Shown here: positions 21,917-22,905 of the stretch, piece after piece
Position numbering within the stretch: position 1 is the stretch's first letter
How the letters are laid out: each line of letters begins with the position of its first letter
Assembly (NCBI GenBank): GCA_035651955.1
Contig: DASRES010000073.1
Span: 1 to 45,464, forward strand
Reading direction: 5' to 3'
DNA: 45,464 bases
Source of the DNA: Acidimicrobiia bacterium
GTDB taxonomy: Bacteria; Actinomycetota; Acidimicrobiia; IMCC26256; JAMXLJ01
Notes under the pieces: model-generated
Seen by the model: the letters and a program-made list of their open reading frames with translations, nothing else
Databases searched by the model: none
Told to the model about the DNA's origin: nothing
Position numbers and translations under genes: made by a program

Positions 21917-22387
21917 ATGGCGGTTCTCGTCGGGTTTCTCGTCGTGGCCGTGGTGCTCGCGATCGCGGCTGCGTTCGTCGTGCGCGAGGCGAGTCGCATG
22001 GCGGTCGACCCGCCCGCCGCCGTGTTCGACCCCGACGAGGCGTTCGCGTGGGTCGTCCGCCACGTGCCCGACGACGTCGCGGCGACGCTCACGGAGGACG
22101 ACGTCCGCCGCATCCTCGACTTCCAGCTCGAGTTCTTCCAGCGGAAGGGCGTGTCGGCGAACGGTTCGTCGCCCACGCCGGCGGGGCCGGTCGTCGTCGG
22201 CGGGTCCGAGACCGTCGACTACATCCTCGGCCGGGCGGCCGCGACCGGGGAGGCGTACCTGCCCGAGCAGGTCCACGCGGTGATCGACACCCAGCTCACC
22301 TACCTGCGGGCGATCGGCGCGATCGGCTCGCAGGCACCGCCCGGCGCGTCGGGGACCGAGCCGGGCGACGACGACCGGCCTGCGTGA
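21917..22387 (+). CDS. Single-pass membrane protein of unknown function
   Basis: 156-aa protein with one N-terminal transmembrane segment (about residues 3-21) and a soluble domain rich in acidic residues. The soluble part includes a predicted helix around DDVRRILDFQLEFFQRKGV and another around VHAVIDTQLTYLRAIGAIG. No family is recognised. The ATG at 21917 puts the membrane segment at the very N-terminus. The 126 bp upstream contain no gene and only a direct TCTTCTGCG repeat. No clear link to neighbouring genes. Confidence 0.7.
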   Translation: MAVLVGFLVVAVVLAIAAAFVVREASRMAVDPPAAVFDPDEAFAWVVRHVPDDVAATLTEDDVRRILDFQLEFFQRKGVSANGSSPTPAGPVVVGGSETVDYILGRAAATGEAYLPEQVHAVIDTQLTYLRAIGAIGSQAPPGASGTEPGDDDRPA

Positions 22388-22458
22388 CCGAAACGGCTCC
22401 CGGCCGCCCCTCCGCGCGTGCTACCAATGGGGCACCAGGGAAAGGAGGTGGTCCATAC

Positions 22459-22500
22459 ATGCATGATCAACGTGGGACCCTGGAGGTGCGCGGCCGCTAG
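22459..22500 (+). CDS. 13-codon micro-ORF with extreme Shine-Dalgarno
   Basis: ATG at 22459 encodes MHDQRGTLEVRGR and stop. GAAAGGAGGTGGTCC (22440-22454) can pair with 15 consecutive nt of the 16S rRNA 3' end (one G-U), with 10 nt from AGGAGG to the ATG. CCAG...CTGG and GGTCC...GGACC can fold so that the Shine-Dalgarno sits in a bulge. The peptide may be a real product, a leader, or incidental to an RNA function. Confidence 0.5.
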   Translation: MHDQRGTLEVRGR

Positions 22501-22637
22501 GCCGTAGGGGCGCCCCCACGGGGTGCCGATGGCTGGACCGCCTGGCGGAATCCACCCGCCGCACCGTCGCCGAGCCCGGACGGGAGTTGGTCCCACCCGT
22601 GTGTCCCGGACGGCGATGCCTTTCAGCCCATTCGATG

Positions 22638-22665
22638 TGGAGGGGGCGCGCGAGCGCCCCCTCCA
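22638..22665 (+). terminator. Perfect 12-bp hairpin terminator
   Basis: TGGAGGGGGCGC and GCGCCCCCTCCA form a perfect stem around a GCGA tetraloop (GNRA class), followed by CAATTCT. It closes the RNA-like segment 18 nt before the next gene. Confidence 0.8.
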
Positions 22666-22683
22666 CAATTCTCCGGAGACGCC

Positions 22684-22905
22684 GTGACCCACCTCGATCG
22701 CTTCGAAGGCTTCCGCTACGTCGGCGACAAGCGCAGCCAGCTCGTCTACGACCTCGAGCACCCGCCGTCGGACGACGTCCTCGACGAGCTCATGGCGTCG
22801 CAGGAGTTCACCTGCTTCGGGCCCGACACGCTCGCGGAGGCCCGCAACCGCGGCTACCGGCTCCATCGCCTCGCCGCGCTCGGGGCCGAGCTCGGCATCG
22901 AGTAG
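22684..22905 (+). CDS. Small protein of unknown function (73 aa)
   Basis: 73-aa soluble protein starting MTHLDRFEGFRYVGDKRSQL with a central acidic stretch and an Arg-rich C-terminal third. GGAG lies upstream of the GTG start. I do not recognise the family. Its stop is immediately adjacent to the stop of the convergent DUF1802 gene, with no bases between. Composition and codon use match the neighbours, supporting a real gene. Confidence 0.65.
   Translation: MTHLDRFEGFRYVGDKRSQLVYDLEHPPSDDVLDELMASQEFTCFGPDTLAEARNRGYRLHRLAALGAELGIE

Follow-up and report, generated by a model that had tools for sequence, protein, structure and literature searches.

Ms_IGR-5 is reportedly an actinobacterial small RNA (sRNA) that was first found in Mycobacterium smegmatis. 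Two other groups of RNAs offer points of comparison, namely leader-peptide attenuators of the trp and whiB7 type, in which the codons of a short translated open reading frame (ORF) join alternative pairings, and 6S RNA and Ms1, which bind RNA polymerase. Our literature search on Ms_IGR-5 retrieved catalogue mentions and one note on ribosome profiling (Ribo-seq), and no described function. RNA-seq backs the RNA in Streptomyces lividans (PMC8079986), an sRNA transcription unit has been reported in S. avermitilis (PMC8780764), and Ms_IGR-5 homologues carried ribosome footprints in Ribo-seq data from M. abscessus and M. smegmatis, an observation to which the authors attach the caution that footprints also arise on non-coding RNAs (PMC4974804). 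Here, we describe an element in a 45,464-nt stretch of DNA from an Acidimicrobiia bacterium, hereafter the window. On balance, we favor the reading that this element is a divergent Ms_IGR-5 homologue, an sRNA of about 240 nt that is transcribed on its own and whose fold would be controlled by the ribosome.

Searching the window at the Rfam gathering score returned no match, neither to 6S RNA nor to any other named RNA, and ARAGORN found no tmRNA in it. The Rfam model of Ms_IGR-5, RF02471, matched the window weakly at 22434-22622 (15.4 bits), below its curated cut-off of 45 bits. A covariance model built from 30 sequences, all of the window's order (R1), recovered distant homologues that match RF02471 over its full length, with scores of 97.9 (L090), 93.9 (L091), 84.8 (L092), and 49.9 bits (L060), and a genome of the window's own class (G340) scored 45.9 bits against RF02471. 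When RF02471 was run on the same 396 sampled genomes of the phylum, 84 matched at E <= 0.01 and 34 lay above the cut-off. Strong matches of R1 and RF02471 coincided in 37/37 genomes having both, and a second model restricted to the 5' domain (R2) matched at the same place in 34/34 genomes above the cut-off, a comparison made by eye that includes some sequences used to train R2. Because a model trained within one order finds above-cut-off RF02471 members at the same coordinates, the element is, on this comparative evidence, a divergent Ms_IGR-5 homologue beyond the reach of the present Rfam model; since its own score falls below the cut-off, we call it a variant rather than a formal RF02471 member. 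The statement of an earlier sequence-only reading that this was not a named RNA was thus wrong at the level of homology.

The window RNA and Ms_IGR-5 share the same start (AC...GGAAGGAGGUGGUCC), the same extended Shine-Dalgarno sequence (SD), a micro-ORF similar in length and position, the potential to form helix P1a (CACA/UGUG in Ms_IGR-5) and a pseudoknot (GGACA/UGUCC), and sequence signals, among them a terminator, of a putative stand-alone transcript. Conservation in alignment A5, which was made by sequence only, covers the 5' domain with its AC stem, extended SD, GGAC, GAGGTG, and stop codon, and R2 scored the window (71.2 bits) and a Mycobacterium-like genome (70.0 bits) almost equally, both being in its training set. 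In contrast, the 3' domain of the window RNA (P2, PL, P4, and P3) is unlike the Mycobacterium consensus, and the Rfam structure of RF02471 contains neither P1a nor the pseudoknot.

A DNA search with positions 22390-22690 detected the element in 37/61 relatives and 24/35 genera, with the highest identity in the initial ~70 nt of the RNA; a -10-like box lies directly 5' of ACCAG. R1 identified it in 115/396 sampled phylum genomes and 145/296 class genomes, and R2 in 146/396 phylum genomes. A covariance search across actinobacteria had been proposed by the sequence-only reading, and it revealed conservation of both sequence and structure. There is nearly always one copy per genome; two copies were seen in G018 (contigs C1 and C3) and G280. 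One contig labelled as a Bryobacterales metagenome-assembled genome (L122), outside Actinomycetota, carries the actinobacterial pattern and may reflect a binning error.

The inferred transcript spans 22434-22672 (plus strand, as for all RNA features given here), as placed by the R1 and R2 models and the weak RF02471 match. A -10-like promoter element, TACCAA (22422-22427), lies 12 nt 5' of the inferred RNA start, A22434, and the pattern TANNN[TA] occurred at the fixed distance 5' of the inferred start in 154/201 elements, against a control of 2.3. At the other end, the fold places a terminator hairpin with a GCGA loop and without a U tract at 22636-22667; a strong hairpin occupies the same region in homologues, and a downstream stem of at least 10 bp was present in 89/191 elements compared with 11/181 controls. 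A terminator with a GNRA loop had been proposed before, and that part stands, while its stem measures 14 bp rather than 12. A short CAGCC/CCAGY motif recurs just 5' of the terminator (22620-22630 in the window, and in homologues). The fixed -10 box, the following stem, and the changing neighbors described below indicate that the element is a gene of its own, as judged from genome comparison.

The extended SD, GAAAGGAGGTGGTCC (22440-22454), is complementary to the whole 16S rRNA 3' tail. A search of the window's own assembly for 16S gave no match, and the tail, GGCTGGATCACCTCCTTTCT, was taken from related genomes. The predicted duplex comprises 15 bases including one G-U pair and has a computed energy of about -31.5 kcal/mol, compared with -11.6 kcal/mol for an ordinary SD and -16.6 kcal/mol for a strong one. 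No other such SD-like site with up to two mismatches exists in the window (chance 0.09). All 201 non-redundant homologues can pair 15-20 contiguous bases with the 16S tail, whereas other GGAGG sites reach a maximum of 12. The 15-base pairing that the sequence-only reading had pointed out, and its remark that this is far more than translation needs, are both borne out by these values. A literature search with the SD string yielded no matches.

The micro-ORF of 13 codons, also proposed earlier, runs from ATG at 22459 to TAG at 22498-22500 (22459-22500) and would encode MHDQRGTLEVRGR*. When each AUG, GUG, or UUG located 6-13 nt 3' of GGAGG was compared with the conserved stop, the start codon was in frame in 172/191 scorable non-redundant elements, the other two frames accounting for 5 and 4. 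This agreement holds despite the SD-to-stop distance occurring in all three phases across elements, and distances from the start codon to the GGAC strand change in steps of three. Conservation of the frame suggests that ribosomes ordinarily translate as far as the stop. N-terminal residues vary freely among homologues, and the recurrent C-terminal residues, EVxGR or REVAxR, are encoded by structurally constrained nucleotides of P1a and PL. The same conserved nucleotides read EVxGR in some lineages and SGGGSS, in another frame, in others; as the reading frame of this conserved stretch changes between lineages, it is seemingly translation rather than the peptide that is under selection. Where AUG, GUG, or UUG is missing, AUC, AUU, AUA, or CUG is often found at that position. 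In-frame near-cognate codons of this kind were AUC in L036, L038, L040, L045, L051, and L052, AUU in L044, L047, L257, and L261, and CUG in L039, L046, L099, and L250. A near-cognate start codon is also used by infC of E. coli, and the near-cognate starts of the micro-ORF may point to initiation-factor sensing.

The 240-nt transcript folds more stably than its shuffled versions (z-score -4.3). RNAalifold on a MAFFT alignment missed P1a and P4, and the helices were therefore placed by hand and tested by counts. In the order-level alignment, six helices showed 94.7% paired cells and 62 double-changed cells, compared with 16.7 after shuffling, with a clear peak against slid partners. Among 78 phylum-level sequences, P1a, P3, and PL together reached 98.0% paired and 125 double-changed cells, compared with 30.2; the alignment itself had been fitted to a structure with these helices in it and hence leans toward them. 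On A5, P1a was 98.2% paired, with 86 double-changed cells compared with 27.0. P1a joins CCAG (22435-22438) to CTGG (22480-22483); its pairs are formed in 98-100% of sequences, double changes affect up to 36/69 sequences per pair, and the pair types include CCAG/CTGG, CACG/CGTG, CGAC/GTCG, CCAC/GTGG, and CTTC/GAAG. This phylum-wide covariation proves, within the limits of comparative evidence, that the predicted P1a stem bracketing the SD is real. PL pairs GGTGC in the last ORF codons (22485-22489) with GCACC (22561-22565), is 96% paired among the 78 sequences, and shows double changes at two pairs. Hairpin P2, GGCGG/CCGCC (22544-22560), carries order-level covariation counts. P4 (22566-22617, pairing 22566-22572 with 22611-22617) shows double changes at 6/6 counted pairs and encloses hairpin P3, CGGG/CCCG (22581-22599), which is 97% paired with double changes at 4/4 pairs. 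Hairpins downstream of the ORF had been anticipated by the sequence-only reading, and folded domains are present there. A GCG(G)AAUCCAACC-like motif 3' of the ORF (22546-22555 and homologues) is strongly conserved and is a candidate single-stranded binding site for a target or protein. Protein-coding on the minus strand (ORFs of 81 and 188 aa) was rejected in view of the covariation and of non-triplet indels.

Within the ORF, GGGACC (22474-22479) can pair with GGTCCC in the P3 loop (22589-22594), forming a pseudoknot, or, in competition, with the GGTCC of the extended SD (22450-22454), whose partner in this alternative (P1b) is 22475-22479. In a model used for aligning from which the pseudoknot was absent, its cells were 93.2% paired, with 9 double changes compared with 1.1, and the column pair 104/330 held 8 double changes versus 2 unpaired cases. 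For the variant GGATG/CATCC the count was 6/6, versus 24/198 for the others; further types were GTGAC/GTCAC and, in Mycobacterium-like sequences, GGACA/UGUCC. Phylum-wide covariation thus supports a putative pseudoknot between the ORF and the downstream P3 loop. Because the GGAC strand pairs with either the GGUCC of P1b or the P3 loop, the two are mutually exclusive. P1b scarcely varies, so covariation is unable to prove it, and its outer pair breaks in other lineages. The CCAG/CTGG and GGTCC/GGACC stems with the SD in a bulge, as drawn in the earlier reading, are both present in the window. The minimum-energy fold of the single window RNA hides the SD by means of GGACCGCC and is ~12 kcal/mol better than a fold with P1 enforced, the pseudoknot being uncounted; this SD-masking fold is unaccounted for by the conserved model. 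SD masking by GGACCGCCT (22536-22544) was considered as a conserved state and rejected, as it looks broken or missing by eye in alignments of several relatives. Overall, conservation and covariation show the predicted anatomy, comprising promoter and terminator signals, P1a, P3, P4, PL, the GGAC/GUCC pseudoknot, and an open frame. A structured RNA, including micro-ORF translation, as the sequence-only reading had suspected, is strongly supported at the sequence level by helix covariation and the conserved frame.

The combination of a micro-ORF and a long ribosome-docking sequence in a conserved pseudoknotted fold suggests putative control by the ribosome, from which we infer switching between P1 and the pseudoknot and a resulting output. 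In the ribosome-free RNA, GGUCC beside the SD would keep the ORF's GGAC strand paired in hairpin P1, leaving the SD exposed in a bulge. A 30S subunit would capture the RNA through a hybrid of 15 or more bp, with the 16S tail taking GGUCC, and the freed GGAC could then form the pseudoknot with the P3 loop. In the window, this pseudoknot would begin about 16 nt past the start codon, where an initiating ribosome has its leading edge, and translation of 10-17 codons to the UAG would open both the pseudoknot and PL. The RNA might thereby report on, or be activated or stabilized by, translation initiation, and what would count is that translation takes place, not which peptide results. A trans-acting output would follow downstream, with a target mRNA or ribosome titration as candidates. 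The wider proposal of a phylum-wide initiation sensor, combining 30S capture through the entire 16S tail, a translated micro-ORF with near-cognate starts (AUC, AUU, CUG) in some lineages, and a P1/pseudoknot flip by ribosome occupancy with a trans output that tracks free-ribosome or initiation-factor levels, is offered tentatively, as one that we consider possible yet rather improbable.

The same docking site could instead make the RNA a ribosome decoy, another role raised by the sequence-only reading, in which the 16S-tail hybrid of 15 or more bp ties up 30S subunits or ribosomes at the initiation stage and thereby reduces general initiation or keeps ribosomes in store. Pairing of 15-20 nt, conserved in each homologue, well beyond that of other SD sites and worth about -31.5 kcal/mol, would fit such a role, as would a pseudoknot near the leading edge of the initiating ribosome and the AUC, AUU, and CUG starts of some lineages. 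However, the conserved frame and stop would be superfluous in an RNA that serves purely as a trap, and one gene per genome would need to supply RNA roughly as abundant as ribosomes; we regard this role as unlikely. The conserved frame could alternatively be explained by a micropeptide mRNA whose product is the 13-residue peptide, and the phylum-wide frame and the recurring EVxGR or REVAxR terminus speak for it. However, the N-terminal half varies freely, the recurrent part coincides with the nucleotides forming P1a and PL, and the SGGGSS lineages read those nucleotides in another frame. The micropeptide role raised by the sequence-only reading is accordingly disfavored, and we give it little credence.

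That reading had also suggested a cis-acting leader or attenuator of the 73-aa gene (22684-22905), which begins about 16 nt past the terminator; a 156-aa gene (21917-22387) lies upstream. The order acyl-CoA dehydrogenase, 156-aa gene, RNA, and 73-aa gene is common in the window's class, and Pfam and NCBIfam returned no family match for the 156-aa and 73-aa proteins. A leader role would suit this order, but the terminator intervenes, and the RNA and its hairpin occur without the 73-aa gene in L019, L027, L028, and L029 of the window's class. Outside the class, neither the 156-aa nor the 73-aa gene was found beside the RNA, so that the 73-aa gene follows in the window's class only, and not always there. 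In some genomes tRNA-Glu follows instead; a tRNA-Glu (UUC) was found closely 3' of the RNA homologue on the same strand in L094, L103, and L261. Flanking-gene calls at distant loci are unreliable at high G+C and were used for strand and context alone. The changing neighbors and the losses of the 73-aa gene argue against a cis-acting leader, a reading that is largely refuted and to which we assign only a very slight chance. As in leader-peptide attenuators, the window RNA has a short ORF whose codons enter alternative pairings; unlike them, it possesses its own promoter and terminator signals and lacks a run of regulatory codons, and neighborhood comparison found no conserved regulated gene directly 3' of it, as an attenuator would have.

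Returning to the favored ribosome-controlled sRNA, its resemblance to 6S RNA and Ms1 lies in being putatively stand-alone, single-copy, widely conserved, and apparently built to engage a core machine. It differs from them in its structure and in engaging, as predicted, the ribosome via the 16S tail rather than RNA polymerase. Our comparison indicates that conservation of Ms_IGR-5 spans a large phylum to which Streptomyces and Mycobacterium belong, and it extends the family to lineages missed by the Rfam model. The conserved micro-ORF, the SD complementary to the full 16S tail, and the pseudoknot between ORF and loop provide testable handles on this family and suggest that it may be a ribosome-controlled small RNA.
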